Assembly: GCF_038002605.1 (NCBI RefSeq)
Contig: NZ_JBBOCT010000001.1
Location: forward strand, 2,294,001-2,358,000
From: Bacillus sp. FSL K6-3431
GTDB lineage: Bacteria > Bacillota > Bacilli > Bacillales > Bacillaceae_C
DNA: 64,000 bases
Direction of reading: 5' to 3'
Of this stretch, positions 25,050 through 60,333 are shown piece by piece; the first letter of the stretch is position 1; each line of letters begins with the position of its first letter. The notes under the pieces were generated by a model. It made no database searches. It had not been told where the DNA came from and was given only the letters and a program-made list of their open reading frames with translations. The position numbers and the translations under genes were made by a program.

Positions 25050-25076
25050 TTTATTCGTCTCCTTCAATTCTCTTTT

Positions 25077-25510
25077 TTAACCTTTTGTTCCTGTTAACGC
25101 AATACCCTTTATAAAGTAGCGCTGCATAAAGTTCAACTAACAATCAGTGGGGGTTTTCTATCATCCCCCACTGATTGTTAAGGAACTCAGGCTAAGGTCG
25201 CCGCGTCCTGCTGCAACGCCTGAGTGACCAACATCCTGTTGGCCGGAACCAATCGGGCCTTTACGGGCAGTTATCCCCCACTTACTTTTCATTGCTTAAA
25301 CTTGAATCCTTGAAGTGGGGGTTTTACTGCTCGTTAATCTGCTAAAAAGAAAAATAAAAGAATAATAGGTGTTACTACTGTAGCAGAAGCCGCCATTAAG
25401 TATCTCCTCCAAGAAAATCTTTCCATATGCCTGTAAACGTAAAGAGCCCAACTACAATTAACTTCGGCTTCGAGAACGGAATAATTACCTTGACCTGAGA
25501 AGAACGAACA
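25077..25510 (-). pseudogene. Broken MalG-type ABC permease gene
   Basis: Three permease fragments survive in order. QVKVIIPFSKPKLIVVGLFT and FTGIWKDFLG (about 25400-25500) is the end of the EAA-loop region. MAASATVVTPIILLFFF (about 25344-25395) is in another frame after an internal deletion. MQRYFIKGIALTGTKG with its stop (25077-25127) is the normal C-terminus. The 5' two thirds are gone, and the element at 25132-25342 splits the last two fragments inside the codon run FFF-MQRYF. The remnant shows that the GH127 genes once had their own importer. No reading frame here should be treated as a live gene. Confidence 0.88.
25132..25342 (+). mobile_element. IS200/IS605-like non-autonomous element, copy 2
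   Basis: 211 nt, no reading frame. Left hairpin CAGTGGGGG / CCCCCACTG is perfect; then comes CTCAGGC...GCCTGAG with an inner stem; CCAACA/TGTTGG; and right hairpin CCCCCACTT / AAGTGGGGG, then TTTTACTGC and TTAATCTGC. It is inserted after ATAAAG (25126-25131) in a permease gene, and the flanking codons rejoin exactly if it is removed, with no target-site duplication. That is the behaviour of IS200/IS605-type single-strand transposition. The autonomous parent is not in the window. Confidence 0.6.
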
Positions 25511-25520
25511 AACGAATGCA

Positions 25521-27398: not shown

Positions 27399-27481
27399 AC
27401 AGTCCTCCTACTTGATTAATCAGTAAAATTGCAATAATCTTAAATTAATTATAGTGATATATTTAAGGGACAGTAATGCAG

Positions 27482-27514
27482 AATCATAACAATAAATTGT
27501 ACAATCATAACAAT
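27482..27514. promoter_or_regulatory. Direct repeats, candidate AraC-regulator binding site
   Basis: AATCATAACAAT occurs at 27482-27493 and 27503-27514, a 21-bp period (two helical turns) as expected for AraC-family half-sites. It lies between the divergent GH127-type gene and the AraC gene, just ahead of the AraC ribosome binding site. Confidence 0.5.
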
Positions 27515-27529
27515 TCAAAGGAGGACATC

Positions 27530-28399
27530 ATGCTACAATTAATCGCTCCGCCTTTACCAACCCTTTTAGAAACTGGGGAGGATACATATTCATCTGGTCA
27601 ATCACACCCAAATCGTAGTCAGATTGGAGTATTTGATTTACTTATCGTCACACAGGGATGTTTAGTGATGGGAGAAGACCAAAAGCAGTTTCACATAGAG
27701 GCGATGCAAGCTCTTATACTTTATCCAGATCGACACCATTTTTCGGTAATACCATGTGAATCAACGACTCATTTTTATTGGTTTCATTTTACAACATCAA
27801 AGGAATGGTCAGAATTAAGTGAAGTTTCTCCTAAACAAGGGATGGAATACATGATAAACAGCAATAGAAATCCCTTTTCGGAACTTCCATTCTGGATAAG
27901 GCTTCCTAAACATTGCAAAATACATAATTGGAATGTTGTTGATCTTTTATGTAAACAAATACTATCTTCTGAAGTCGAATCTACTTATTCTTCGGAATGG
28001 CAAAGGCAAATGCTGTTTCAACAATTATTGCAGGAACTGGCAAGCACTACTCACTTGGAAAAGTCCTTACCTACATTAGCGGTGGCAGAACAGGCTGCGG
28101 ATTATTTACGAAGGAATTTTTCGCGAAAAGTTAGCTATAAGGAGCTTGGCGAATCACTTTGTTATCACCCTAATCATATTGCCAGATGCATGATCAATAC
28201 GTTAGGTTGTACCCCAATTGAATATGTCAATAGGGTTCGTTTGGAACAAGCAAAGGTTTTATTGGTTTCAACGAATTGGAGCATTGAAAAGATTGCTGAA
28301 AACTGTGGCTTTTCACAAACAGCTTATTTCAGCCGATTTTTCAAAAAGGAAGAAGGCATGTCTCCAAAAGAGTTTAAACAACAGTATGTAAGATGTTGA
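27530..28399 (+). CDS. AraC-family transcriptional regulator
   Basis: A 289-residue regulator with an N-terminal cupin-type sugar-sensing domain (residues about 1-160; FDLLIVTQGCLVMGEDQ, DRHHFSVIP, FYWFHF) and a C-terminal pair of HTH motifs (about 190-285; VAEQAADYLRRNFSRKVSYK, then IEKIAENCGFSQTAYFSRFF). The ATG at 27530 is chosen because GGAGG lies 5 nt before it; an in-frame ATG 54 nt earlier has no ribosome binding site and lies in the direct repeats. It is divergent from the GH127-type gene and probably activates it in response to a released sugar. Confidence 0.9.
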   Translation: MLQLIAPPLPTLLETGEDTYSSGQSHPNRSQIGVFDLLIVTQGCLVMGEDQKQFHIEAMQALILYPDRHHFSVIPCESTTHFYWFHFTTSKEWSELSEVSPKQGMEYMINSNRNPFSELPFWIRLPKHCKIHNWNVVDLLCKQILSSEVESTYSSEWQRQMLFQQLLQELASTTHLEKSLPTLAVAEQAADYLRRNFSRKVSYKELGESLCYHPNHIARCMINTLGCTPIEYVNRVRLEQAKVLLVSTNWSIEKIAENCGFSQTAYFSRFFKKEEGMSPKEFKQQYVRC

Positions 28400-28535
28400 C
28401 AGGAAAAAACTATTTTGTTCTGTAGGTGGTAAAAGTCAAAAAACTGACTTCCAAATGGACAGCCAGTTAATTGATTTAATATAAAAGTCGTACCTTTTTA
28501 ATCGTCCCACCTAAGCATTACTCGTTGCAATAGTC

Positions 28536-30035
28536 TTATCTCCTAAACTCACTCAATTGCTCATTTAAATCCTTTGTTTTGCTATACACATCTTGATAAA
28601 TAGGGAAAAGCTTTTCGTATGTAGCAACATTATCTGGATTTGGATGATAGGTTTCCACGACTTGTACAAATGTATCAGCACATGCTTGAAGTGATGTAAA
28701 CCAGCCGCTTCCATACGCTGCGAGCATTGCAGCTCCCATTCCTGGCCCTTGTTCGCTGGCAAGTCTTACGATTTCCACATTAAAAATATCTGCCTGCATT
28801 TGCAGCCAATGTTTATTTTTGGCACCGCCGCCGATCGAGACAACTGTTTCGATCTTTTTGCCATTGTCTCTAAATATTTCAATCGACTCATGCAAAGAAA
28901 AAGTAATTCCTTCAAGAACTGCACGGACAAAGTCCTTTCTTTCATGAGCTGCATCCATTCCAATAAAACTTGCTCGAATGGTTGAATCAGCATGCGGACT
29001 TCTTTCTCCTGCCAAATAAGGCGTGAATAATAAACCGTTTGCGCCAATTGGAACTTCGTTCAAATCTTTAAGTAAACTGTCGAAATCTACATCTGCTGCA
29101 AAGGTTTCTTTAAACCAGCTTAAGCTATAACCAGCGGACAAAGTGACACCCATTGTGTAGAACCCTGCCTCTTCTCCATGGTTAAAATAATGAACTTTCC
29201 CTTTGAAATCTTGATCGCTTCTTTCCTCATATGAAAGGACAACCCCGGATGTACCAATGCTGCACAACGTTTTCCCTTCAAACAAAATTCCCGAACCGAT
29301 TGCACCGCAAGCATTATCTGCTCCACCTGCAAAAACTTTTACCGATTCATTTAAACCAGTATTCATTGCAACTTCATTTGTAATCGCTCCTGTTTGCTCA
29401 TGTGAGGCAATAAGCGGTGGACAAAGATCCAAATCAATGTTCAAAAGCTCGCATATTTCCTTACTCCATTTTTTCTCCCCGACATCAAGTAGTAATGTCC
29501 CTGCCGCATCGGAATATTCACTATGTATAAGTCCAGTCAGCCTGTATCGCAAATAATCCTTTGGGAGGAGAAAGACTGTTGCTTTTTCATATATAGTAGG
29601 TTCATTTTCCTTTACCCATAAAAGCTTTGGTAATGTAAATCCTTCTAACGCAGGATTTTTAGTAATTTTCAAAAGTGTATCAATTCCTACTTGTTCCTCA
29701 ATATCCCTACACTGTTTTGTTGTTCTCGTATCATTCCAAAGGATAGCATTTCTTAATACTTGATGTTCATCATCAAGTAAAACGAGACCGTGCATTTGCC
29801 CAGAAAAGCTCATTCCTTCAATATCTTCTACATTTCCAGCGAAATTTTTTACAAGTTCAGCAAGTCCTTCTATCGTCTTTTCTACCCACTCTTCAGGATT
29901 TTGTTCACTATAGCCAGATTTTTCTTGAATGAGAGGATAAGATTTTGAGACCTCTTGACACACCTCACCATTTTGATTCATGAGTAAAATTTTCACTGCA
30001 CTCGTTCCAAGATCGACACCGATTACATATTTCAT
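28536..30035 (-). CDS. xylB: Xylulokinase
   Basis: A 499-residue FGGY-family kinase that phosphorylates D-xylulose to xylulose 5-phosphate, the second step of xylose catabolism. The N-terminal ATP-site motif YVIGVDLGTSAVKILLM is at residues 3-19. SGQMHGLV near 80, the catalytic aspartate segment AGGADNACGAIGSG near 235 and GGGAKNKHWLQMQADI near 400 are all typical. The start is the second of two adjacent ATGs, 6-7 nt after AAGGGTG. It follows xylA on the minus strand with a hairpin in the 70-nt gap, so xylB may be made at a lower level than xylA. Confidence 0.95.
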   Translation of the reverse strand: MKYVIGVDLGTSAVKILLMNQNGEVCQEVSKSYPLIQEKSGYSEQNPEEWVEKTIEGLAELVKNFAGNVEDIEGMSFSGQMHGLVLLDDEHQVLRNAILWNDTRTTKQCRDIEEQVGIDTLLKITKNPALEGFTLPKLLWVKENEPTIYEKATVFLLPKDYLRYRLTGLIHSEYSDAAGTLLLDVGEKKWSKEICELLNIDLDLCPPLIASHEQTGAITNEVAMNTGLNESVKVFAGGADNACGAIGSGILFEGKTLCSIGTSGVVLSYEERSDQDFKGKVHYFNHGEEAGFYTMGVTLSAGYSLSWFKETFAADVDFDSLLKDLNEVPIGANGLLFTPYLAGERSPHADSTIRASFIGMDAAHERKDFVRAVLEGITFSLHESIEIFRDNGKKIETVVSIGGGAKNKHWLQMQADIFNVEIVRLASEQGPGMGAAMLAAYGSGWFTSLQACADTFVQVVETYHPNPDNVATYEKLFPIYQDVYSKTKDLNEQLSEFRR

Positions 30036-30066
30036 CATTCTCACCCTTTTTTTAATTGTAATGAAG

Positions 30067-30099
30067 AAAATGTGCGGGAATTAGATTCCAGCACATTTT
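30067..30099 (-). terminator. Attenuator-like hairpin between xylA and xylB
   Basis: Stem AAAATGTGC / GCACATTTT with an extended inner pairing GGAAT / ATTCC. On the minus strand it is followed by ATTTTCTTC, a weak U-tract, 10-40 nt after the xylA stop. It may limit readthrough into xylB. Confidence 0.55.
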
Positions 30100-30105
30100 T
30101 TCAAC

Positions 30106-31437
30106 TTATTTTCCTTGATTAGCAAGTGTTTCAAGTAAATATTGGTTGACGATACCTTGTAGGCGTTCTTGTCTACCAGAAATATTTTTAATTTCGCCTA
30201 ATTCCAATGCATACTTTTCAAGTTTATGGAAGTCAGCGCGACCTTCAACGATATCAAGTCCGATTCCTTCTGTATAACTTTGGTAGCGTTTATCAATGAA
30301 TTCTTCCAATGCACGATCTTCTAAAAGTTTGTTAGCTACTTTTAAACCAACCGCAAAGCTATCCATTCCTGCAATATGAGCATAGAACAAGTCTTCCGGT
30401 TCAAATGAACCTCTGCGCACTTTTGCATCAAAGTTCAATCCACCTTTACCTAGTCCACCATTTTGTAAGATTTCATACATCGCTAGTGTAGTAGAATACA
30501 AATCTGTCGGAAATTCATCTGTATCCCAACCTAGTAATGTATCACCTTGGTTAGCGTCGACTGATCCAAGCATGCCATTGATACGAGCAACTCTTAGTTC
30601 ATGTTCAAATGTATGGCCAGCTAATGTCGCATGATTCGCTTCGATGTTAAATTTAAAGTGCTCGTCAAGACCATAATTTTTCAGGAAAGCAAGTCCAGTT
30701 GCAACATCAAAGTCGTATTGGTGTTTCGTAGGCTCTTTAGGTTTTGGCTCAATAAGGAATGGGCCATCAAAACCAATTTCCTTGGCATAATCAACTGCCA
30801 TATGGAAGAAACGCGCTAGATTATCTTGCTCAAGCTTCATGTCTGTATTTAAAAGTGTGTCATAACCTTCGCGGCCACCCCAGAACACATAGTTTTCCGC
30901 TCCAAGTTCTTTTGCCGTCTCTAATCCTTTTTTCACTTTAGCAGCAGAAAATGCATAAACATCTGCGTTACTGGAAGTAGCAGCACCATGTACATAACGC
31001 GGATGTGTAAACATATTTGCTGTATTCCAAAGCAATTTTACTTTGCTGTCTTTCATATAATCTTTAATCATTGCTGTAATAACATCAAGATTTTCATACG
31101 TTCCTTTTAACGTATCAGCCTCGGGAGCAATATCGGCATCATGGAAGCAGAAAAATGGAACATCTATTTTTTCAAACAGTTCGAACGCTGCTTCAACACG
31201 TGCTTTCGCAAGGTCCATTCCTTGGAGATTATTCCAGGGGCGAACCGCCGTACCTACACCAAATGGATCTGTTCCATCTGCTGTGAATGTATGCCAATAT
31301 GCTACTGAGAAACGTAGTAGCTCCTCCATTGTTTGGCCATTTACTATTTCCTTAGGATTGTAATATTTAAAAGCAAGCGGATTTTTTGAACCAGAACCTT
31401 CATACTGAATATTGTTTACTTTTTCGAAATAAGCCAT
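30106..31437 (-). CDS. xylA: Xylose isomerase
   Basis: A 443-residue class II xylose isomerase converting D-xylose to D-xylulose with divalent metal. The active-site histidine is in [13 protein letters not shown] near residue 102. The metal ligands are in the run [20 protein letters not shown] near 225-245, [17 protein letters not shown] near 268 and GSVDANQGD near 296. The length is normal for Bacillus. It starts behind GGAGGT and is divergent from xylR. The 166-nt intergenic region holds a large perfect palindrome and a possible cre site, so expression is expected to be xylose-induced and catabolite-repressed. Confidence 0.97.
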
Positions 31438-49840: not shown

Positions 49841-49880
49841 AAAAGCATGGGCTGATTTTCGAAGGCAGCCATGCTTTTTT
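49841..49880 (+). terminator. Rho-independent terminator
   Basis: AAAAGCATGGGCTG pairs with CAGCCATGCTTTTTT with one bulged G, followed by a T-run. It lies between convergent genes (phosphatase and GH172) and may serve both. Confidence 0.8.
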
Positions 49881-49912: not shown

Positions 49913-51037
49913 TTACTTTCTCTGTTCATTCCCCCATAATTTGCTTCCGTTCCCCATTGCTCTTCTCCATTCATGACGCCATTTGTGTACATCAGCTACT
50001 GTAATTTCCGGCATATTTTGACGATGTATCTTGCTAGGTATAGGTGGGAATATCTTATGTGGCTCTGTTTGATACCAATAAGATACTGTACTTAGATCTA
50101 ATGTCAGGTTATTATCATGTCCATGTTCTATACTGGCGCGTAATGATTTATTAAAATAAATAGGATCTTCTAGAAGAAATCTGTAACAGTGTGTTCTTCC
50201 CATCCATCCGAGTTTATCGGGAACTCTGGCATATCCAAAGTATGGATGAAGGTAAAGTTCATTTGGACACCAGGAACTGTTAAAAAAGTCCTCTGTCCCT
50301 GTTCCATGTAAAGATCCTGGCCATGTTTCTCCATCAACCATAAACATATCGTCCCCTTCTCCATACCACATTGGACCAGGGCTATCTACATAATAATTCA
50401 CACCAACAAAATGGCCTGTTCCTTCAATATCTGCAAATAGATAATTATGCTCATCTGTTTTATTATTCCCTTGTGGCCCTACAACACCCCATTCAGTCTC
50501 ACCCGCTTTAGGATTTACTCCTGTTAACTCCTTGTTCCACCATGCATGAAAACGTCCTGCTGATTGTGGCATTGACGGATGAACCTCATAATCAATGTAA
50601 AAATAGAAACTATCAATGTTTACATCCGCTTGATTTTCAATTGTAATTCTTGCTCCATTTCCGAAAGGCATTGGAAAATAACAATTTAAAGCTTTACCTG
50701 CTGCTGGTGCCGCAGCCAATGGAAGTGAAATGAAGTTGTATTCCTCTCCCCACCCTTGTCCAAAAAAGTCACCGATGGGAGACTCAACACTAGGATTCTC
50801 TTCGCCATCCCAATACATCCTTATTATTGCATTCCGGCGAATAAAAGGATCTAGAGTAGCAATCGTTATCCATATATGCTTAACAATACCCGCGCCATTA
50901 ATATTAGCAATCTCAGAAATTTCTCCAGACTCTATGACAATTTTATCTGAATTTCCTCCAGTTTTATCATAACTAGAAACACGTTTAGTTTTTATATCCG
51001 CTTTTATCTGATAAATATTACCTAATGGTCCTAACAT
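49913..51037 (-). CDS. GH172 (DUF2961) glycoside hydrolase
   Basis: A 374-residue protein of family DUF2961, now GH172, whose known members act on alpha-D-fructofuranosides, difructose anhydrides or alpha-D-arabinofuranosides. IWITIATLDPFIRRNAIIRM near residues 54-73, SPIGDFFGQGWGEEYNF near 85, and the highly conserved LHGTGTEDFFNSSW near 239 with its glutamate define the family. There is no signal peptide, so it acts on imported material. It is the last gene of an importer operon and has a paralogue at 55840. The start has GAGGTG upstream. Confidence 0.88.
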   Translation of the reverse strand: MLGPLGNIYQIKADIKTKRVSSYDKTGGNSDKIVIESGEISEIANINGAGIVKHIWITIATLDPFIRRNAIIRMYWDGEENPSVESPIGDFFGQGWGEEYNFISLPLAAAPAAGKALNCYFPMPFGNGARITIENQADVNIDSFYFYIDYEVHPSMPQSAGRFHAWWNKELTGVNPKAGETEWGVVGPQGNNKTDEHNYLFADIEGTGHFVGVNYYVDSPGPMWYGEGDDMFMVDGETWPGSLHGTGTEDFFNSSWCPNELYLHPYFGYARVPDKLGWMGRTHCYRFLLEDPIYFNKSLRASIEHGHDNNLTLDLSTVSYWYQTEPHKIFPPIPSKIHRQNMPEITVADVHKWRHEWRRAMGNGSKLWGNEQRK

Positions 51038-51077
51038 ATCGCTACACCTCTTTTAATTTTTTTAATATCATCTCTGC

Positions 51078-51959
51078 TTACCCTTTAATACCAGTCATCG
51101 CAATCCCCTCAATGAAGTATCGTTGTCCCATAAAAAACACAATAATAACAGGCAAGGTTACAAACGTAGCAGCTGCCATTAAAATCGGCCAACTTTGTAC
51201 ATACTGCCCGGCTGCCAATGAAGCAATAGCTAAAGGGAGTGTTTTCATAGAATCACTACTTATTACTAGTAATGGAAATAAAAAGTCATTCCATGCACCT
51301 ACAAAGGTAAATATCCCCAATGCTGATAAAGCTGGCTTACTAATAGGGAGAACAATTTGAAAAAAAATTCTAGCTTCTCCAGCACCGTCAATCCTCGCCG
51401 CATCCAAAAAATCATCTGGAATATTTAACATAAACTGTCTCATAATGAATATCCCAAATGCTGTTGCTAAACCTGGTGCGATCAAACCATAATAAGTATC
51501 TAAAAAACCTATATTTTTTAAAATTAGATATACTGGTATCATTGTAACTTGTCCAGGAATCATCATTGTCGAAAGGAGTAAAAGAAAGAGTAGTTCCCTT
51601 CCTCGAAACCTAAATTTTGCGAATGCATAACCCGCCATACTATTGAATAATAAACTAAATATCATAATTGTTGATGTAATAAAAACACTATTAAATATAT
51701 ATCTACTGAAATCAGCGATCTTCCATGCCTCTATATAATTATGCCACTGCATATCTTCTGGTAACCATGTAATTGGAATTGTAAATACGGTTTGATCCGT
51801 TTTTAATGAGGTTAATATCATCCAAATAAATGGTATTAACATCGTAAACGCTCCCAGAAATACAATAATAACGACTGTTAACCTTATTGGTATACGTAGC
51901 GATTGTACTAAACTTTTCTTTTGCACACTTTCTTCAGAATTAGTATCAGAAGCCATCAA
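51078..51959 (-). CDS. Carbohydrate ABC transporter permease, MalG-type
   Basis: A 293-residue CUT1 permease. Helix 1 is VVIIVFLGAFTMLIPFIWMI followed by LTSLKTDQ. The EAA loop is LDAARIDGAGEARIFFQIVLP near residues 180-200, and the protein ends YFIEGIAMTGIKG. It lies 44 nt after the MalF-type permease gene and 40 nt before the GH172 gene, so the importer and the hydrolase form one operon. No ATPase is encoded nearby. Confidence 0.93.
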   Translation of the reverse strand: MMASDTNSEESVQKKSLVQSLRIPIRLTVVIIVFLGAFTMLIPFIWMILTSLKTDQTVFTIPITWLPEDMQWHNYIEAWKIADFSRYIFNSVFITSTIMIFSLLFNSMAGYAFAKFRFRGRELLFLLLLSTMMIPGQVTMIPVYLILKNIGFLDTYYGLIAPGLATAFGIFIMRQFMLNIPDDFLDAARIDGAGEARIFFQIVLPISKPALSALGIFTFVGAWNDFLFPLLVISSDSMKTLPLAIASLAAGQYVQSWPILMAAATFVTLPVIIVFFMGQRYFIEGIAMTGIKG

Positions 51960-52003
51960 AGAAACCCCCTATTGTTTAATTACTATAATTATCTTGTATA
52001 TTA

Positions 52004-52933
52004 TTAGTAATGTACTCTACCCATAAATCTGTATTGAATCAGAGTAATTGCCAGAATTATTAAAAATAAGATCATTGATAAAGCAGACGCATAACCAAAT
52101 ATCAACTCTTTAAATGCCTTTTGATAAATATAAAATACAATAGCATATGTGGATTGTGCTGGGCCTCCACCAGTAATAATGAAAATTTGATCAAAAATTT
52201 GAAATCCACCTATAACTCCCATCGTACAAACAAAAAAAGTCGTTGGTATTAAAAGGGGCCATGTAATAAATCGAAATTTTTGAAGTGAATTTGCACCATC
52301 CATTTCTGCTGCTTCATAATAACTTTTATCAATCCCCTGTAATCCTGCTAAGTAGATAACCATATTAAAACCTATCGCTTTCCAAACTCCAATGATAATT
52401 AACATTGGCATTGCTAACTTTGGATCACCAAAAAATTGTTGATTGGAAATCCCAAACGTTGATAACCACTCATTAATTGGGCCAAACTGTGGATTAAAAA
52501 GCCACATCCATACAAAAGCTACTGCTACCATCGAAACAATAGTAGGTAGAAAATATGTAGCTCTAATAATATTTTTAAATGGAAACCATTTCTTATTTAA
52601 TACAATTGCAATTGCTAATGAAATAACTACTGCTGGAACTAACGATCCGAATACATAATACACCGTTACAAGGAGTGACTTTATGAATAATTCGTCCTCT
52701 AATAAGTAAGCGAAGTTTTCTAAACCTACAAATTTAGCTGGATTCAATGCATCGTAGTTAAAAAAGCTCAATCCCAAACCTGCTACTGCAGGTATAGCAA
52801 CAAAAATAAGAACTATTGTAATAGCTGGAGCCATAAATAACCATGGTGCAATATTTCTCGATGTTAATTTTCTTTTTCTATTTACCACTTTTATTAAATC
52901 AACAGAGGTTATTCCTTTATTCATTTCTGACAT
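52004..52933 (-). CDS. Carbohydrate ABC transporter permease, MalF/UgpA-type
   Basis: A 309-residue CUT1 permease. APWLFMAPAITIVLIFVAIP is helix 1, followed by LGLSFFNYDALNPAKFVGLE. The EAA loop reads YEAAEMDGANSLQKFRFITWP near residues 200-220. The ATG at 52931-52933 is chosen because AGGGG lies 8 nt upstream; a GTG three codons earlier overlaps it. It is separated from the binding-protein gene by a perfect hairpin. It belongs to the GH172-linked importer. Confidence 0.93.
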   Translation of the reverse strand: MSEMNKGITSVDLIKVVNRKRKLTSRNIAPWLFMAPAITIVLIFVAIPAVAGLGLSFFNYDALNPAKFVGLENFAYLLEDELFIKSLLVTVYYVFGSLVPAVVISLAIAIVLNKKWFPFKNIIRATYFLPTIVSMVAVAFVWMWLFNPQFGPINEWLSTFGISNQQFFGDPKLAMPMLIIIGVWKAIGFNMVIYLAGLQGIDKSYYEAAEMDGANSLQKFRFITWPLLIPTTFFVCTMGVIGGFQIFDQIFIITGGGPAQSTYAIVFYIYQKAFKELIFGYASALSMILFLIILAITLIQYRFMGRVHY

Positions 52934-52983
52934 TTGCTTCACCCCTAACTATTAATTTCTCATAATGTATGATATTTCCGTAA

Positions 52984-53017
52984 TGTACAGCACAAGAAGT
53001 TATCCTTGTGCTGTACA
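52984..53017 (-). terminator. Intercistronic hairpin after the binding-protein gene
   Basis: Perfect 13-bp inverted repeat TGTACAGCACAAG / CTTGTGCTGTACA with an 8-nt loop, 8 nt after the binding-protein stop on the minus strand. No U-run follows, so it is more likely a stabiliser or processing barrier than a terminator. Confidence 0.7.
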
Positions 53018-53025
53018 AGTACTTC

Positions 53026-54360
53026 CTACTTTTGTTGCTGTTTTATCGACTTATTGATATTTTTTGTAGCTTTTTCTAGTGCCTCTTTTGGTGTAACTTT
53101 TGAACCTTCTACCAATACAGATTGAATCGCATTATCAACTTCCGGCCCATAAATAGATGTATAAGGACCTATCCATTCTTGGGTATCCCACTCGTTTTCA
53201 AATGTATCGATAATCCATGCACCTTTATCTTCAAATTCTTCGGCGTCCATTCCTGGAATGTCTTTGAATCCCGTCACATTCTTAAATTCGTCACTTTGCA
53301 CTGCTGAATATCTAGCTGGAGGTGCAACCCACAAAGTTTGCCAATACTTAGTTAATGCCTCTTTCGATGATAAATATTCAGCTAGCTTATATGCGGCATC
53401 TGGCTGTTTTGAATCATTATTTACTCCCCAGAGAACGGATCGAGCAGTGACTACCTTCCTTTCTCCTGCTGGAAAACTAGTAGCTTTGAATTTTAAATCT
53501 GGTGCAGCTTTAGTAATGGATGGGGAGATCCAAGAACCCTCAATAAACATAGCTGCTTTTCCCGTTTGAAAGTATACATCTGGTCCAATTTGTCCCATTT
53601 CGGATTGATAAGGAGTTAAATTGAAGTCGACCATTAACTGCTTCCAATATTCTAACGCCTTAATTGATTCATCAGAATCGACCGTTGATGTTTGCTTGTC
53701 TTCACTCCATAAAGATCCACCAAATGCCATGACATAATTACTAAAAGTAAAGGAATTCCATGCTTGTACTAAACCATATCGCTCAATTTTGTCTCCATTT
53801 TTTTTCGTTAACTTTTCAGCATCTTTTAACATTTGATCTAATGTATAATCGTGATCAGGTTCTTTTAACCCAGCTTCCTTAAAGGCGGCCGGGTCAAAAT
53901 ATAAAGTCAACAAAGCTTCATCTTGTGGAAGTCCATATGTTTTTCCATCTTCTGTAGCTATATCCCATACAGTTTTTACAAAGTCATCTTTATCTAGAGC
54001 CGACTTAGTAATATAGTCATCTAAAGGCAATAACATCCCTTTAGATAATAGCTGAGGTAATCCATCTCCTCCCACCCTCATTACATCAGGAGCATTTCCT
54101 CCAGCTGCCAATGTGATCAATTTTTCTTGATATTTTGTATAGTTATTAAAAACTACTTTAATATCAGGGTTTTGCTTTTCAAATTCCGGTATATATATAT
54201 CTTTATATAGAGCGTCTTCCCAAGGCATCCCCCAAACTGACATGCTAATTTTGGTTTTCCCACTATCACTGTCTCCTGAAGCTTTATCATCAGAACTACA
54301 CCCTGCGATTAACGCCATGACCAAAAGAAGCATCAGTCCTATATTATATTTAGCTTTCAT
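53026..54360 (-). CDS. Sugar-binding lipoprotein of the GH172-linked importer
   Basis: A 444-residue family 1 extracellular solute-binding protein. The start ATG at 54358-54360 has AAGGAGG 6 nt upstream; a longer frame to 54441 has no ribosome binding site. The signal MKAKYNIGLMLLLVMALI leads to lipobox IAGC, then SSDDKASGD. The mature domain opens KISMSVWGMPWEDALYKDI, and IEGSWISPSITKAAPDLKF near residue 285 is typical. It captures the substrate for the two permeases. A LacI-type operator lies 410 nt upstream in the long leader, linking it to the regulon at 57718-59997. Confidence 0.92.
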   Translation of the reverse strand: MKAKYNIGLMLLLVMALIAGCSSDDKASGDSDSGKTKISMSVWGMPWEDALYKDIYIPEFEKQNPDIKVVFNNYTKYQEKLITLAAGGNAPDVMRVGGDGLPQLLSKGMLLPLDDYITKSALDKDDFVKTVWDIATEDGKTYGLPQDEALLTLYFDPAAFKEAGLKEPDHDYTLDQMLKDAEKLTKKNGDKIERYGLVQAWNSFTFSNYVMAFGGSLWSEDKQTSTVDSDESIKALEYWKQLMVDFNLTPYQSEMGQIGPDVYFQTGKAAMFIEGSWISPSITKAAPDLKFKATSFPAGERKVVTARSVLWGVNNDSKQPDAAYKLAEYLSSKEALTKYWQTLWVAPPARYSAVQSDEFKNVTGFKDIPGMDAEEFEDKGAWIIDTFENEWDTQEWIGPYTSIYGPEVDNAIQSVLVEGSKVTPKEALEKATKNINKSIKQQQK

Positions 54361-54769
54361 GTTTATCCTCCTTGGAATGATTCGTCTAGTGAAAAGTTGT
54401 GGTATTAAATCTAGATGATGTGGTTTTTCATTGCAAAACAACCTTAACCTTAATTTTCAGCAGTAAGTTATCACACAATGTTGTAAGAGTTCGTAGATGA
54501 TCTTGAGGAAATACTTCGTTGCTATTCGCCATATTAAAGTTTGTGGTTTTTTAATGGCGAGAACAAATGCTATGCAGCAGATTAAATAATTGATCCCCTA
54601 TGGTGTTTGTAATTTTTTCTCATTATTTTTCTAAATTACTGTCACCTCCATTTGGTAAATTAAACACATATTTATTAATAAACTAGGAACTTCTAATAAA
54701 CCATATCCTCAATTAACCCCCTCCTTTTTTGAGGAATTCTGTTTAGGCGAGTATACCGGTACATAATAG

Positions 54770-54781
54770 GTAATCGTTTAC
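54770..54781. promoter_or_regulatory. LacI-type operator 1 (importer/GH172 operon)
   Basis: GTAATCGTTTAC, followed by ACAC. Identical in its 12-bp core to four more sites near the lacI and kinase genes. It overlaps the likely promoter of the importer operon. Confidence 0.75.
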
Positions 54782-54790
54782 ACACAGTTT

Positions 54791-54829
54791 AAATAAATGA
54801 GTAAAAATAATATTAATACTCATTTATTT
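54791..54829 (-). terminator. Terminator-like hairpin after the SDR gene
   Basis: Perfect 13-bp inverted repeat AAATAAATGAGTA / TACTCATTTATTT around a 13-nt AT-rich loop, 127 nt after the SDR stop. AT-rich and without a clean U-run, so moderately strong. Confidence 0.55.
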
Positions 54830-54955
54830 GGAAAACACGCCTATCATAATACCTGATATTATGAATTCCTATTCCTAGTACAATAGTAGATCTTTATTGT
54901 CTGTTTACAATATTCCATTTAATTTATTCGTATGTCATATTAGCTACGGCTTAAC

Positions 54956-55735
54956 CTACAACGCCGTATATCCCCCATCAACAGAAAATACAGAGCCTGT
55001 AACAAATGATGATGCTTCGGATGCTAAGTATAGGGCTATCGCACCCAACTCATCAGGCGTACCTGGTCTTCCCATTGGGGTTGAATTCATCCACGTTTCA
55101 ACCATATTCTGATTCTGTTCGAAAAACTTTTTTGTCAGTTCTGTTTTCATATAACCCGGTGCTATTGTATTGACTCTAATATTATGCTGCGCCCATTCCA
55201 TCGCCAAACTTTTGGTAAGCATAATAACTCCCGCTTTCGATGCATTATAAGAAGACTGACATTGTGGAGTATTAGCAATCAACCCTGACATGGAAGATAT
55301 ATTTACAATGCAACCTTTCTTTTGCTTTATCATGACTTTTCCAATAGCCTTGGAAACGATAAAAACACCATTTAAATTAATATCAATTACTTTATACCAA
55401 TCCTCAAAAGACGTATCTTCAGCTTTTTCATTAATGACGATTCCTGCATTATTGATTAACACATCAATTTTTCCAAAATGATCTAATACATCATTCACCA
55501 TTGCGTTTACTTGGTCTTCTTTTGTGACATCCATAGCTAAAGCAATTGCTTCTATTCCTTCATTTCTTTTTAACTCGTCAGCCGTTTTTTGAGCTTCACT
55601 AAAATTGATATCTGCAATTACAATATTTGATCCAGCTTGAGATAGTGCTGTTGCCATTGCTTTTCCCAATCCTGTAGCAGCACCTGTAATAACCGTGACT
55701 TGATCTTTTAGATTAAATCGATCTAATACTTTCAT
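54956..55735 (-). CDS. SDR-family oxidoreductase
   Basis: A 259-residue classical short-chain dehydrogenase/reductase. The cofactor motif TGAATGLGKAMA is at residues 17-28, NNAGIV near 92, the catalytic serine in NISSMSG near 145 and the YxxxK pair in SSYNASKAG near 160. IADIN after the second strand, with an acidic residue, suggests NAD(H) preference. It lies between two GH172 genes in the LacI-controlled locus. It may oxidise or reduce a released pentose, hexose or polyol; the substrate is not clear. Members of this group are often labelled gluconate 5-dehydrogenase or 3-oxoacyl-ACP reductase without proof. Confidence 0.88.
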   Translation of the reverse strand: MKVLDRFNLKDQVTVITGAATGLGKAMATALSQAGSNIVIADINFSEAQKTADELKRNEGIEAIALAMDVTKEDQVNAMVNDVLDHFGKIDVLINNAGIVINEKAEDTSFEDWYKVIDINLNGVFIVSKAIGKVMIKQKKGCIVNISSMSGLIANTPQCQSSYNASKAGVIMLTKSLAMEWAQHNIRVNTIAPGYMKTELTKKFFEQNQNMVETWMNSTPMGRPGTPDELGAIALYLASEASSFVTGSVFSVDGGYTAL

Positions 55736-55839
55736 GATTGTACACTCCTCTGATCGGTGATAGATTTACATTGTTCTTTTAAAACGTCCTCCGGTTTTAT
55801 TATCTTCCTTCCATAGAGCCACGATCTTTTAATATTAGT

Positions 55840-56931
55840 TTATATAATTTCAAGTTCATCTTTACTTGAAAGCTTCGGAAAAACAGTATGTGGTTCTAAT
55901 TGATACCAATACGCAACAGACGCAATATCATCTTGTAACGGAAGATACCTTCCTTCAGAGCGCCAACCAAGAGCTTGAATTGTTACTTTCAAATCCTCTT
56001 CAAAGCGAATTGGATCCATCACATGCCATCTATACATTCCAAATCGTTGTTGGCTACGGTAAAGACCATCCGCTTTAATCACTTGTGGCATCCCTAGATA
56101 TGCAGTAGAGTAAGCACAATACTCACCCTTAGGTTGCTCAAAATTCCAAGCGCCTCCGAAATAATCCTCTGTACCCGTTCCAACAATCGTTGGAAAATCA
56201 TCATCTCCATCCATATAAAATTTAATTTCACCTTCTCCCCACCACCCATTATTGTTAACACCCCAAGCAATATATGTTCCTACATAGTGACCCACGCCTG
56301 TTATTCCATCTACGATTGTATGAACATCTTTGTATTTAAGCGGATTGCTCCTATTCCATTGAGCATGGAAATAAGCCATATCTTCAGGAATTTCCGTTAG
56401 GGCATAGTCAAATTGGTAATATAGAGGGAACTCTACTTCATCTAGATTTTCAATTGTAATCTTAGCCGATTTTCTAAATGGCATTTCCCAATAGGAGTTC
56501 ATCCCTCCAGCTGGATTAACTGCGATTGGCAATGAATTCACATTACAACGTTCATTCCATCCATTACAGAAAAAGTCGCCAAATGGAACTTCGACTGAAG
56601 GCGTTTCTTCTTCATCCCAATACATTCGGATAATCGCACTTCGCCAATGAGCAGGGAAACAAGTCATCCAAATATGCTGTATCACACCCGGCCCTTCAAT
56701 TTCTGCCAAAGTGATTGTACTTTTCGGTTGAAGCATAATGGACGGGGATACTTTCCATCCTTTCCCTAAGTCACGAGCAGCATTTTTCCCTGTTCCTTCT
56801 GTAGCCATTGCTCCTTTGCCTTTTTCACCTGTAAAATTTTCCGCACTAATCGACCTTGTTTTTGCTTTTGATACTCTTGACAGATTTCCCAACCCCATAC
56901 CTAATCCGTTAAATTCACTCATTTTTTTCAT
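55840..56931 (-). CDS. GH172 (DUF2961) glycoside hydrolase, second copy
   Basis: A 363-residue GH172-family protein. IWMTCFPAHWRSAIIRMYWD near residues 89-108, VPFGDFFCNGWNERCN near 120 and the conserved IVGTGTEDYFGGAWNF near 235 with its glutamate match the family. It shares the YWYQLEPHTVFPKL C-terminal block with the paralogue at 49913 (YWYQTEPHKIFPPI). It is cytoplasmic. The gene follows the isomerase gene and precedes the SDR gene in the same operon. Two GH172 paralogues could differ in linkage or chain-length preference, or form mixed oligomers; the known family members are multimeric. Confidence 0.88.
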   Translation of the reverse strand: MKKMSEFNGLGMGLGNLSRVSKAKTRSISAENFTGEKGKGAMATEGTGKNAARDLGKGWKVSPSIMLQPKSTITLAEIEGPGVIQHIWMTCFPAHWRSAIIRMYWDEEETPSVEVPFGDFFCNGWNERCNVNSLPIAVNPAGGMNSYWEMPFRKSAKITIENLDEVEFPLYYQFDYALTEIPEDMAYFHAQWNRSNPLKYKDVHTIVDGITGVGHYVGTYIAWGVNNNGWWGEGEIKFYMDGDDDFPTIVGTGTEDYFGGAWNFEQPKGEYCAYSTAYLGMPQVIKADGLYRSQQRFGMYRWHVMDPIRFEEDLKVTIQALGWRSEGRYLPLQDDIASVAYWYQLEPHTVFPKLSSKDELEII

Positions 56932-57080
56932 CCTTTCGCCTATTTTTTATATGTTTCTATTAAACCCCAATACAAAATGGAAACTCGGGCAATATATTTT
57001 CTCCGTGATAATTAAATTCTTCTTTATTTTTCATATTTATATTTCCAATATATGAACACGCTTACAAATAACCTTTTAAA

Positions 57081-57671
57081 TTACTTTTTTGATAATTGTT
57101 TGCCTAGACTCCCACCTGGATGATATAGGTGAAAGTCTTCTTTAGTGAAAAACTTCAATTTCGAAAGTGCAATTGCTAAAGCATCCCCAATAACTAGAGT
57201 AATAGTTGAGCTTGTAGAAGGTGCTAGCCCTAGGTGATCAGCTTCAGATACGTACTCATAAGTTAAGGCAACATCACATGATTTTGCTAGCGTAGACGCC
57301 CCCTTAGAAGTAATCGCAATTTTTTTAGAGCCTATTTTAGATAGGGATGGAAGAAGATTTAACACTTCTACAGTTTCACCACTATTAGATATCAAAATGA
57401 CAATATCTTCTTTTTCAATCATGCCTAAATCACCATGCACCCCTTCTGTACTGTGCAGAAAAAATGCAGGGGTCCCTGTACTTGCGAGCGATGCAGCAAT
57501 TTTCTTACCGACATGCCCTGATTTACCTACACCGGTAATAATCACTTTCCCATTGCTATTTTGAATTAAATTTACGGCTGTTTCATAATTTGGACCAATT
57601 TGTTCTAACATTCCTTTAATAGCAGTCGCTTCTGTTTCAATGGTCTTTTTTATATCGTGTAGGACTGTCAT
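57081..57671 (-). CDS. CBS-less KdsD-like arabinose-5-phosphate isomerase (SIS domain)
   Basis: A 196-residue SIS-domain isomerase closely resembling the N-terminal part of KdsD/GutQ, which interconverts D-arabinose 5-phosphate and D-ribulose 5-phosphate. The residues known to matter in KdsD are present: lysine in GVGKSGHVGKKIA near 49, glutamate in SNSGETVEVLNL near 100, glutamate in VSEADHLGLAPSTSS near 141 and histidine in FHLYHPGGSLGKQL near 184. It stops where the two CBS domains of KdsD would begin. A Gram-positive cell makes no Kdo, so a catabolic role is inferred. It sits between the LacI regulator and GH172 genes. Confidence 0.87.
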   Translation of the reverse strand: MTVLHDIKKTIETEATAIKGMLEQIGPNYETAVNLIQNSNGKVIITGVGKSGHVGKKIAASLASTGTPAFFLHSTEGVHGDLGMIEKEDIVILISNSGETVEVLNLLPSLSKIGSKKIAITSKGASTLAKSCDVALTYEYVSEADHLGLAPSTSSTITLVIGDALAIALSKLKFFTKEDFHLYHPGGSLGKQLSKK

Positions 57672-57717
57672 CTCTCGTCTCCTTTATATATAGTAAATAC
57701 CATTCGATTTCCATTGC

Positions 57718-58731
57718 TTAATGAAAAGTATTCATATTTATATTGATGCTAGGACGAAATTTTTCATGGGTAGGTGTCTGCACTTTATTTATCAATCTAT
57801 CAATTAAAATTTCCCCCACACGGACACCCATCTCATATGGAACTTGTATAATGTTCACAATGCCAGGAGGTTTTAGAAATTGTGCTGCATCAGTTTCGCC
57901 ATAAGATGCAACAACCAGATCTTTAGGTATGTCCTTTCCCATCCTTGTTAACTGAAGAATGACACCAAATGTCATTGTGTTATTAAAAGATAGAATTGCT
58001 GTCGGCGGCTTAATAATTCTATTAAAAAAATGTGCTACTGCTTCAATGCCATCTTCCTGTGTAAAATGACCGTTAAAAACTAAGTCGGGATTAAGTTCAA
58101 CTTCATGTTCATTCATTGCATTTTCATACCCTAAATAGCGTTCCTTACCTGTACTTACATTCAATGGACCGTTGACTACGCCAATCCTCTTATGTCCTTG
58201 TTCGATTAGATACTTTGTTAATTGATATGAACCATCAATATTGTCTTCTTCAACTAAATCAAAATCAACTGCTTCATTCTCTAACTTCCTATCAATTAGA
58301 ATGATTGGTACTTCTGCTTCTTTTATTTTATAAATAGTCTCTTCATTTCCACCAGATGTTGCTAAAACAATGGCATCAACCCTCTTCTCTATCAACACTT
58401 GTAACATCCTTTTTTCTTTATCGGGATTTTCATCGCCACTAACAAATATTAAGTTATAATCATGTTTTTGAATTGTATCTTCTATTCCTCTAGAAATTCT
58501 CATGAAGTATGGGTTAGATATATCAGGAATAATCACCCCAATTGTATTTGTTCTATCTGTTTTTAAACTTCTGGCAATTGCATTTGGCTGATAATTTAAT
58601 TTCTTCGCAACCGAATGTACTTTTTCTTTGATCTTATCACTTGCATACCCTGTATTAGTCAGAACTCTAGATACAGTTGCAGTAGAGACTCCGGCTTCTT
58701 TAGCAATATCTTTTATTGTTATTTTATTCAT
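57718..58731 (-). CDS. LacI-family transcriptional repressor
   Basis: A 337-residue LacI-family regulator. The HTH is at residues 3-25 (ITIKDIAKEAGVSTATVSRV), the hinge YQPNAIARSLKTDRTNTIGV near 46-65 contains the minor-groove leucine motif, and the sensor domain covers about 65-330. It would bind a sugar or sugar phosphate and release GTAATCGTTTAC operators, two of which lie within 65 nt upstream of its own start. Three more lie upstream of the kinase and importer operons. It is followed 46 nt later by the isomerase gene. It has no HPr-interaction signs and is not CcpA. Confidence 0.93.
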   Translation of the reverse strand: MNKITIKDIAKEAGVSTATVSRVLTNTGYASDKIKEKVHSVAKKLNYQPNAIARSLKTDRTNTIGVIIPDISNPYFMRISRGIEDTIQKHDYNLIFVSGDENPDKEKRMLQVLIEKRVDAIVLATSGGNEETIYKIKEAEVPIILIDRKLENEAVDFDLVEEDNIDGSYQLTKYLIEQGHKRIGVVNGPLNVSTGKERYLGYENAMNEHEVELNPDLVFNGHFTQEDGIEAVAHFFNRIIKPPTAILSFNNTMTFGVILQLTRMGKDIPKDLVVASYGETDAAQFLKPPGIVNIIQVPYEMGVRVGEILIDRLINKVQTPTHEKFRPSININMNTFH

Positions 58732-58748
58732 TTAAGCACTTCCTAGGT

Positions 58749-58760
58749 GTAATCGTTTAC
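58749..58760. promoter_or_regulatory. LacI-type operator 2 (lacI leader)
   Basis: GTAATCGTTTAC within TGTAATCGTTTACAT, 17 nt upstream of the lacI start codon. Same 12-bp core and orientation as operators 1 and 3-5. Confidence 0.8.
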
Positions 58761-58783
58761 ATATTACAAATAACATTATATGT

Positions 58784-58795
58784 GTAATCGTTTAC
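58784..58795. promoter_or_regulatory. LacI-type operator 3 (lacI leader)
   Basis: GTAATCGTTTAC within GTGTAATCGTTTACAC, 35 bp from operator 2, a spacing near three helical turns that could allow cooperative binding. Confidence 0.8.
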
Positions 58796-58997
58796 ACTAT
58801 GATAATATAAATTAACTTTCTTTTCAAGCCATTTTTATAATTTTTAGAAAGTATTTCCTGACTTTAATATGAGCTACAGTTCACGTTCACTTCGTTTATC
58901 AAAAGAAGTTAATCAGGTAATCCTTTATATCATTTGAATAAAGATAAGTAGACATATATTCATTTAAAGCTATTAATATTAAGAGGACAACTCTCTA

Positions 58998-59933
58998 TTA
59001 TCCTTCTACGAAATTATATTTATTTATAAATTCATCTACATCTTTATCAGTAGGCAAGGATGGAATCGCCCCTCCTTTTGTTACAGTTAAGGCACCAACC
59101 GCATTGGCATACTTCACCGCGTCCTTTAATGGTTTTCCTTTCAAAATCCCAATAGAGAGCGCCCCATTAAAAGCATCGCCTGCGGCCACTGAGTCAATAG
59201 GGGTAACAGAAAATCCATTGACATAACAAATTTCGTTTTCATTAACGATTAACGATCCTTTTTCAGCAAGTGTAATAATAACATTTTTAACTCCCTTATC
59301 CAAGAGAACATTCCCTGCTCTTTCTGCATCTTCTTTAGAAGCAATCTTAATTCCAGTTAACATTTCAGCCTCTGTTTCATTAGGAGTAAGATATGTTATG
59401 TTCCTAAGTAAATCATCACTTAATACTTGGGCAGGTGCAGGGTTTAAAATAACTGGAACTTGATAAAATGCCGCATAAGATACTGCTTGTTCAATCATAT
59501 TGAGTTCCATCTCCAGTTGAACGATTAATATTTTGGAATTTCTAATCAAACCTTTTATTTTTTCCAAATCTGATGATTTATAGTTCATATTAGCACCAGG
59601 GACTACGATAATACGATTGCTTCCATTTTCCTCCAATGTGACAAAACCGACCCCAGTAGCAAAGTTCTTATCACGTAAAAGATATTGCGTATTAATCTGC
59701 TCTTTTTTTAATGTAGCTAACGCCTCGTCACCATATAGATCTGTACCTACTTTACCAACCATTGTTACCTTTCCACCTAGTCTAGCTGCTGAAACCGCTT
59801 GATTTGCCCCTTTACCACCAGGAAATCTAGAAAAGCTATTACCAATAATGGTTTCTCCGTCTTTAGGCGCTCGAGGTGTATAAACAACTAAATCCATCAT
59901 AAAACTTCCAATCACTAAAATCCCCACAAGCAT
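58998..59933 (-). CDS. rbsK: Ribokinase-like PfkB sugar kinase
   Basis: A 311-residue PfkB-family kinase most like ribokinase, which transfers phosphate to O5 of D-ribose and in known enzymes also accepts D-arabinose. Motif 1, GGKGANQAVSAARLGG, spans about residues 38-53; motif 2, DSVAAGDAFNGAL, near 251-263, holds the catalytic aspartate. The start is uncertain: ATG at 59931-59933 lies right on GGGAG, while the in-frame GTG at 59925-59927 is 6 nt from it. No ribose transporter is near. Two LacI-type operators lie just upstream. Together with the KdsD-like isomerase it suggests D-arabinose rather than ribose use. Confidence 0.87.
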   Translation of the reverse strand: MLVGILVIGSFMMDLVVYTPRAPKDGETIIGNSFSRFPGGKGANQAVSAARLGGKVTMVGKVGTDLYGDEALATLKKEQINTQYLLRDKNFATGVGFVTLEENGSNRIIVVPGANMNYKSSDLEKIKGLIRNSKILIVQLEMELNMIEQAVSYAAFYQVPVILNPAPAQVLSDDLLRNITYLTPNETEAEMLTGIKIASKEDAERAGNVLLDKGVKNVIITLAEKGSLIVNENEICYVNGFSVTPIDSVAAGDAFNGALSIGILKGKPLKDAVKYANAVGALTVTKGGAIPSLPTDKDVDEFINKYNFVEG

Positions 59934-59953
59934 CTCCCTTTATTTATTTTTAA

Positions 59954-59965
59954 GTAATCGTTTAC
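59954..59965. promoter_or_regulatory. LacI-type operator 4 (kinase leader)
   Basis: GTAATCGTTTAC followed by ATATA, 20 nt upstream of the kinase start. It would block transcription initiation or early elongation. Confidence 0.78.
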
Positions 59966-59985
59966 ATATACAGATCCCAAAATAG

Positions 59986-59997
59986 GTAATCGTTTAC
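59986..59997. promoter_or_regulatory. LacI-type operator 5 (kinase leader)
   Basis: GTAATCGTTTAC followed by ATAAAT, 32 bp from operator 4. The same paired arrangement occurs upstream of lacI. Confidence 0.78.
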
Positions 59998-60333
59998 ATA
60001 AATATAATCTGTATATTTAATTAAGTCAACATATTTTTGTAATTTTTATAAAAGTCTAGCCTGATGATGAACAAAGCATATATATGCAGCCCCATCTGTT
60101 TGAGCATGTAAAAAGTTTATAAGGAAGTACATATTCCATCTATATACCTACCCACCATGAATTAGAACTACCTGATTATATTCACACAATTAGCTTCCTT
60201 TAACCATTCATTTTGATCGCATAACGTAGTTGTGACCAGCCCTAACCCTAGGACTGGCCACTTTTGGCTAGTATTATACTATACTATTAATCGCCGAGAT
60301 TTGGATAGTATCCCTTCTTTTTAGCGAATTTTC

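Follow-up and report, generated by a model that had tools for sequence, protein, structure and literature searches.

Relation to Described D-arabinan Systems

In the D-arabinan locus of Microbacterium arabinogalactanolyticum, an ATP-binding cassette (ABC) importer with its solute-binding protein (SBP) accompanies a cytoplasmic glycoside hydrolase (GH) of family 172, the characterized exo-alpha-D-arabinofuranosidase ExoMA1. D-ribulose 5-phosphate is the proposed end point, and the parts of the report considered here leave the putative isomerase and kinase unidentified (PMC10509167). The polysaccharide utilization locus (PUL) PUL42 of Dysgonomonas gadei, a member of the Bacteroidota, also encodes GH172 enzymes acting on alpha-D-arabinofuranosides, and its route is isomerase-first; on D-arabinan, the predicted fucose isomerase is the most abundant carbohydrate-active enzyme, according to the sections of that paper on which we draw (PMC10115798). 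Here we describe a locus in a 64,000-nucleotide stretch of the Bacillus sp. FSL K6-3431 genome, hereafter called the window, that very probably serves the import and cleavage of D-arabinofuranosides and the conversion of D-arabinose through D-arabinose 5-phosphate to D-ribulose 5-phosphate. Nine genes on the minus strand (positions 49913–59933) encode a kinase, a LacI-family regulator, a SIS-domain protein, GH172a, a short-chain dehydrogenase/reductase (SDR), a sugar-binding protein, two permeases, and GH172c. This gene list, given for 49913–59997 in a preliminary description of the stretch, was borne out by family assignment with Pfam and NCBIfam and by positions taken from translated frames. 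The importer and GH172 are shared with the M. arabinogalactanolyticum locus. The window differs in encoding a ribokinase-type and a KdsD-type enzyme, and the GH183 and GH116 genes of that locus are matched in relatives of the window locus, whereas the window itself is without GH183.

In the route that we propose, the importer would bring in oligosaccharides or glycosides that end in alpha-D-arabinofuranosyl residues, and the two GH172 proteins would act on the imported material in the cytoplasm as exo-alpha-D-arabinofuranosidases. A specialized ribokinase-family kinase would phosphorylate free D-arabinose at O5, and a KdsD-type enzyme without CBS domains would convert D-arabinose 5-phosphate to D-ribulose 5-phosphate, which would enter the pentose phosphate pathway. 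A repressor of the LacI family would control three gene groups through the operator TGTAAACGATTAC. We infer all enzyme activities, the imported substrate, and the inducer from sequence. D-arabinofuranosides had been the favored substrate of the preliminary description, and this reading is now supported by Asn263 of GH172a, Gly98 and Met14 (E. coli numbering) of the kinase, the KdsD residues of the isomerase, GH183 and GH116 neighbors in relatives, no kdsA, kdsB, or kdsC nearby, and alternation with the isomerase FucI. It is also likely that the locus represents a natural kinase-first D-arabinose route, with a dedicated D-arabinose 5-kinase subfamily and a CBS-less KdsD subfamily apart from the forms that serve synthesis of 3-deoxy-D-manno-oct-2-ulosonic acid (Kdo).

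The Short Isomerase Stands Apart from Kdo-linked Forms

The proposed D-arabinose 5-phosphate isomerase (57081–57671) is a protein of 196 residues that is matched by KdsD/KpsF models; it has a single SIS domain and no CBS match in Pfam. Against TIGR00393 (KpsF/GutQ), it scores 202.5, just below the cut-off of 203.7, with the match confined to profile positions 1–154 of 268. It shares the SIS fold and the K/H/E/E/H residue set with the KdsD, GutQ, and KpsF isomerases and with the CBS-less E. coli c3406 protein (5UQI/5VHU), and its identity to the 5UQI stretch of that protein is 53%. Residues K59, H88, E111, E152, and H193, which we take to be the catalytic residues of KdsD, are conserved in all 24 aligned proteins, the one from the window included. 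The window genome contains a single strong KpsF-type match.

Relatives were sought in two samples that share genomes, an order sample of 397 and a class sample of 398. The order-sample search gave 37 matches: eight short ones with at least 59% identity in six genomes, 27 long ones (327–369 residues), and two short ones at 35–36% identity (G014:C22 and G030:C38), which were set aside as probably another SIS isomerase. All six short-SIS genomes are among the 17 genomes with GH172 in this sample (hypergeometric 2e-9), or six of eight if the two that were set aside are counted.

KdsD serves Kdo synthesis, and E. coli KdsA, KdsB, and KdsC were searched for at the isomerase loci. Among 29 different long SIS matches (27 from the order sample and 4 from the class sample, with G113 and G153 in both), the neighbors of five were examined; kdsA (47–51% identical) and kdsC adjoin the isomerase gene in all five, and a clear kdsB is present in two. 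None of the three genes was found in 18 short-SIS stretches, which represent 17 loci, one of them twice, or in the window. The short form of Bacilli is set apart from the Kdo-linked long form. The earlier premise that Gram-positive cells make no Kdo is thus too broad, and the point that a KdsD homologue here needs a job other than Kdo synthesis is sharpened, since it is the short form that is separate from the kdsA- and kdsC-linked long forms. The five long-form loci (L074, L075, L220, L221, and L222) are in their own right Kdo-type clusters of Gram-positive Bacilli, with long KdsD, kdsA, and kdsC.

Kinase and Isomerase Genes Occur Together

In 15 of the 17 short-SIS loci, the isomerase gene has a ribokinase gene no more than 10 kb away; this holds for none of the five long-SIS loci. 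The samples supplied some of the short-SIS loci and searches for GH172 the others, with two genomes represented by two loci each. GH172 is found within 10 kb in 11 of the 17 and the endo-D-arabinanase family GH183 (DUF4185) in five (L048, L058, L077, L191, and L192), with GH116 in L058; at the five long-SIS loci examined, no ribokinase, GH172, GH183, or GH116 was found. In the class sample, GH183 exceeds the cut-off in three of 398 genomes (the match in G697 is weak, with 46.2 bits over a section of the profile). Nine genomes of this sample have a short SIS, among them all three GH183 genomes, where the two lie within 10 kb (L191, L192, and L213; hypergeometric 8e-6). A fourth GH183 match, at 21.5 bits, falls short of the cut-off; it is from G469, a genome in which SIS has no match.

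Four loci (L069, L215, L216, and L217) consist of genes for LacI, SIS, kinase, and a major facilitator superfamily (MFS) transporter, and in L068 the SIS and kinase genes lie with RbsABC-like genes. By their gene content, these are putative free-monosaccharide versions of the module. In L191 (genome G725), an isomerase 45% and a kinase 37% identical to those of the window adjoin GH183 and GH172, the kinase having Gly98 and Ile14; both proteins are on long branches outside the main groups, and this module was possibly assembled independently. The module may thus have been assembled more than once and coupled to monosaccharide importers (MFS or RbsABC-like) or oligosaccharide importers.

The Kinase Carries a Distinct Residue Signature

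The kinase (58998–59933), the proposed D-arabinose 5-kinase, belongs to the PfkB family in Pfam and passes the NCBIfam ribokinase model TIGR02152 with 343.8 bits (cut-off 299.65); its fructokinase score is much weaker (PRK09434, 98.4). Its identity to E. coli RbsK is 38%, and it shares the AAGD motif with bacterial RbsK proteins. It differs from them at two ribose-contact residues, with Met12 in place of Asn14 and Gly96 in place of Ala98 of the E. coli enzyme, whose numbering is used below. In E. coli ribokinase, the A98G substitution raised the kcat for D-arabinose 15-fold and lowered the ribose activity, and Asn14 does not bond arabinose, as given in the parts of the study used here (PMC9604405). 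The same source names the weak activity of ribokinase toward D-arabinose as the obstacle to arabinoside synthesis.

We compared 48 different ribokinases, E. coli RbsK included. A kinase was called linked when its gene lies with SIS, with GH183, or with an ExoMA1-type GH172 and lacI, which gave 18 linked and 30 other kinases. Those linked without a nearby short SIS are L017/L043 (GH172a and lacI), L193 (GH183), and L170/L197 (GH183, with lacI at 7–8 kb). The L063 ribokinase, which has Ala98 and a GH172c-like gene nearby but neither SIS nor GH183, was placed among the 30 others. Gly98 is present in 18 of 18 linked kinases (15 of 15 with a short SIS no more than 10 kb away and 3 of 3 further D-arabinan-linked ones), against one of 30 others. 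Position 14 is methionine in 17 linked kinases and isoleucine in one, whereas the others have one methionine and one gap; Asn14 is kept in 23 of the 30 and Ala98 in 27. Of 309 positions ranked by the contrast between linked and other kinases, 98 comes first and 14 second. Six of the 18 (L213–L218) were fetched after the pattern had emerged, and all six fit it.

The kinases of L069 and L215–L217 are 43–47% identical to the window kinase, against at most 43% for the nearest Ala98 controls, and the L191 kinase is 37% identical; all five have Gly98, with Met14 or Ile14. It is likely that this subfamily reached naturally the Ala98-to-Gly change that engineers made in E. coli ribokinase.

The GH172 Glycosidases Are Predicted to Release D-arabinose

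GH172 membership was called with Pfam (DUF2961), as NCBIfam has no GH172 model; the two proteins score 281.8 and 328.5 bits against a curated cut-off of 27. The motifs WWGEG/WYGEG and GTGTED align in both with the positions of E270 and E291 of alphaFFase1, the acid/base and the nucleophile, respectively, in the portion of that report used here (PMC8605356). GH172a (55840–56931) is 59.6% identical to ExoMA1 (8IC8) across 349 residues (474 bits) and is predicted to be an ExoMA1-like exo-alpha-D-arabinofuranosidase. Asn253 of ExoMA1 blocks the hydroxymethyl group of fructose, whereas Gly299 of alphaFFase1 admits it, according to the part of the ExoMA1 study considered (PMC10509167). The equivalent residue is Asn263 in GH172a and Cys257 in GH172c. 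GH172c (49913–51037) is 60.3% identical (498 bits) to 8AH3, titled DG02479; this is DgGH172c of D. gadei, active on p-nitrophenyl-alpha-D-arabinofuranoside in the account drawn on above (PMC10115798), and its nearest solved relative. By eye, a signal peptide is not apparent on the GH172 translations and the binding protein has a lipobox, so the cutting is probably cytoplasmic.

No GH183 was found in the window genome, so the window locus lacks this mark of a D-arabinan degradation locus. The strain therefore probably scavenges oligosaccharides that other organisms set free, or small D-arabinofuranosides.

The Pair Alternates with Fucose/D-arabinose Isomerase

In the ExoMA1 clade, the best 80 of at least 590 GH172 loci in named genomes were inspected, some of them on short contigs. 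SIS occurs in three and FucI in four of the 80, and both together in none. The presence of GH172 was therefore rejected as a predictor of the pathway.

FucI (PF07881) has no match in the window genome or in any of 15 short-SIS genomes. In genome-wide searches of five Paenibacillus/Cohnella relatives without SIS, FucI is present in five of five and a SIS match in none; three were chosen for FucI already known near GH172a, and two (G778 and G779) were not. An AraB-like kinase accompanies FucI in L091, L092, and L136. The Paenibacillus cassettes of L091 and L092 share GH172a, a GH172c-like protein, GH183, an ABC importer, and a LacI regulator (51–55% identical) with the loci described here, and they differ in that isomerization comes first and phosphorylation follows. 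FucI likely replaces the kinase-first pair in otherwise similar D-arabinan loci. In Paenibacillus sp. CC-CFT747 (L123:8066–9855), fucI lies beside GH172a in two open frames, perhaps through a frameshift or a sequencing error.

The operon parts are known. The kinase-SIS pairing, its residue signature, and the alternation with FucI appear to be new. In the open-access literature searched, we found no description of a natural kinase-first D-arabinose route, although a Clostridium tetani isomerase paper, known from its title, may discuss a related role. No paper was found there that treats GH172 together with ribokinase, and the sole match there to D-arabinose kinase terms concerns Leishmania. The route would give the short KdsD homologues of Gram-positive bacteria a specific function that is open to test and unrelated to Kdo. 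It also predicts a native D-arabinose 5-kinase, which would be useful for arabinoside synthesis, and LacI-SIS-kinase would be a genomic marker for bacteria that may live on D-arabinose or on fragments of D-arabinan from actinobacterial walls.

Alternative Readings

The use of alpha-D-fructofuranosides such as difructose anhydride, raised earlier as an alternative, would have GH172 free fructose, the kinase make fructose 6-phosphate, and the SIS protein act on another sugar phosphate. The founder of GH172, alphaFFase1, is an alpha-D-fructofuranosidase that both window proteins match, and the specificity position of GH172c is a fairly small cysteine and not asparagine. GH172a carries the fructose-blocking asparagine, however, and the kinase scores far better as a ribokinase than as a fructokinase. 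Fructose catabolism would offer the SIS protein no reaction to catalyze, and in relatives the kinase-SIS pair is adjoined by GH183 or GH116. This reading was rejected on these grounds, and we consider it very improbable. D-ribose or ribofuranoside catabolism, with an ordinary ribokinase and an incidental SIS protein, would fit the clear ribokinase score and the regulator, whose best NCBIfam scores are to the PurR and RbsR models, both under the cut-off. The window genome, however, has two further ribokinases over the cut-off, one of them adjoining rbsA/C-like genes, so that the window kinase could serve a different sugar. Catabolism of ribose 5-phosphate does not call for an arabinose-5-phosphate isomerase, and still the two genes pair in 15 of 17 loci; together with the absence of Asn14 and Ala98, this led us to reject plain ribose use, which we judge to be very unlikely. 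An isomerase working in reverse, to supply D-arabinose 5-phosphate to the synthesis of Kdo or some other compound, would agree with the biosynthetic role of KdsD in Gram-negative bacteria, with the published Keq of 0.48–0.5, which favors arabinose 5-phosphate in the part of the source considered (PMC11591822), and with the kdsA and kdsC neighbors of the long Bacilli homologues. These genes are found at all five long-SIS loci examined and at none of the short ones, which makes biosynthesis less likely and D-arabinose catabolism likelier; kdsA, kdsB, and kdsC had no match in the window or around any short-SIS locus, the window genome not having been searched genome-wide for Kdo genes. The SIS gene belongs to an importer/hydrolase operon with a dedicated operator, and four loci are LacI-SIS-kinase-MFS. 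The chance that biosynthesis is the answer seems to us close to nil.

Several observations weigh against D-arabinofuranoside catabolism by the kinase-first route. The same equilibrium constant means that flux toward ribulose 5-phosphate must be pulled downstream, and the A98G ribokinase retained a very high Km for arabinose (PMC9604405, in the part used above). The signature has exceptions, Gly98 in the unlinked L209 kinase and Met14 in the unlinked L161 kinase. In the kinase tree, from which E. coli RbsK of L158 was left out as a duplicate, 10 of the first 12 linked kinases fall in one clade (Shimodaira–Hasegawa-like approximate likelihood ratio test 95), so that the kinases counted for Gly98/Met14 do not stand for independent events. 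L048 and L077/L219 have no kinase gene in the stretch; the single ribokinase match of the L048 genome at an E-value of 1e-50 is on another contig, with GH183 and a similar LacI. Most of the best 80 ExoMA1-clade loci lack the kinase-SIS pair, and the absence of GH183 leaves a diet of D-arabinan polymer unsupported for this strain. The proposed route assigns no step to the SDR. Finally, the product of c3406 from E. coli CFT073 (L223:15610–16206) contains the 5UQI stretch exactly, and its gene lies in a phosphotransferase system (PTS) operon, next to genes for PTS EIIC, a PRD regulator, a MalY/PatB-like protein, and a dehydrogenase, without a ribokinase. These neighbors led us to reject c3406 as a hidden member of the D-arabinose pathway, and they suggest that its operon imports an already phosphorylated sugar.

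Operators and Regulation

The regulator (57718–58731) has the Pfam LacI and Peripla_BP domains, and relatives 62–72% identical to it are found in L039, L041, L043, L044, and L058. The window contains five exact copies of the operator TGTAAACGATTAC, against 0.14 expected at up to one mismatch, which confirms the identical operators reported earlier; no further exact copy occurs anywhere in the 5.5-Mb genome. All are given on the minus strand. Two lie before the kinase gene (distal, 59986–59998; proximal, 59954–59966), two before lacI (distal, 58784–58796; proximal, 58749–58761), and one 329–410 bases before the binding protein gene (54770–54782). Promoter-like boxes accompany the two distal copies (TTGACT-17-TATATT at 60029–60001 and TTGAAA-17-TATCAT at 58827–58799) and the single copy (TTTCCA-16-TATTAT at 54834–54807); a promoter scan gave 31 boxes overall against 46 in shuffles, so that position just upstream of each gene group is their sole support. 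A terminator-like hairpin followed by a T run (49841–49878, minus strand; -15 kcal/mol, z -3.70) lies 3' of the last gene.

The operator motif resembles what we take to be the cre (catabolite-responsive element) consensus. A role as general cre sites was rejected, since the lack of exact copies elsewhere in the genome makes a local operator likelier. We propose that the LacI-family repressor acts on the operators before the three gene groups. In relatives, an exact or one-mismatch operator precedes SIS, GH172a, GH183, lacI, or kinase genes (e.g. L039, L048, L058, L077, and L218), and an operator common to GH183 and SIS genes links the endo-D-arabinanase to the isomerase. With palindromes merged, 38 sites were counted in 13 of 21 linked loci, against four sites in 4 of 21 control loci.

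Importer, Dehydrogenase, and Other Genes

The sugar-binding lipoprotein of the importer (53026–54360; SBP_bac_1, 134.6 bits) carries the lipobox LIAGC in its translation, and its start is placed at the ATG at 54360 in preference to a TTG at 54441. Two permeases with BPD_transp_1 domains follow (52004–52942 and 51078–51959). The complete binding protein and permease set described previously is present as such, in an operon in which no ATP-binding subunit was found. The SDR (54956–55735; adh_short_C2) is 75–80% identical to SDRs near GH172 or GH183 in L042, L048, and L193.

A family of about 645 residues (L076:8065–10017, the same as L041:6884–8836) recurs in GH172/GH183 loci of Bacilli. It is also found in L039, L043, L048, L058, L077, L079, L104, L125, L129, and L213, and is absent among the window proteins. 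It has no Pfam or NCBIfam match above the cut-off, the best being PF09492 (E-value 0.0096). A structure model (predicted local distance difference test (pLDDT) 74.5, predicted template modeling score (pTM) 0.83) shows a strand-rich N-terminal part and a helical barrel. The solved structures ranked best by Foldseek are those of sugar 2-epimerases, a polysaccharide lyase, GH76, and GH116, with 8–13% identity. This family is a candidate new glycosidase, perhaps for beta-D-arabinofuranosyl ends.

In a further GH172 context, an array of five genes precedes a GH172 gene in L041/L042, L119, L120, L143, L147, L151, L153, and L154, from Lederbergia, Paenibacillus, and Chloroflexota; no FucI was found in those stretches. 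The products are about 633–662, 332–349, 274–332, 318–327, and 337–356 residues long, and the array looks like an oligopeptide-type ABC transporter. The window also holds a separate sugar locus (23148–31437) with two GH127-type genes, an AraC regulator, an FGGY kinase, and a TIM-barrel isomerase-like gene.

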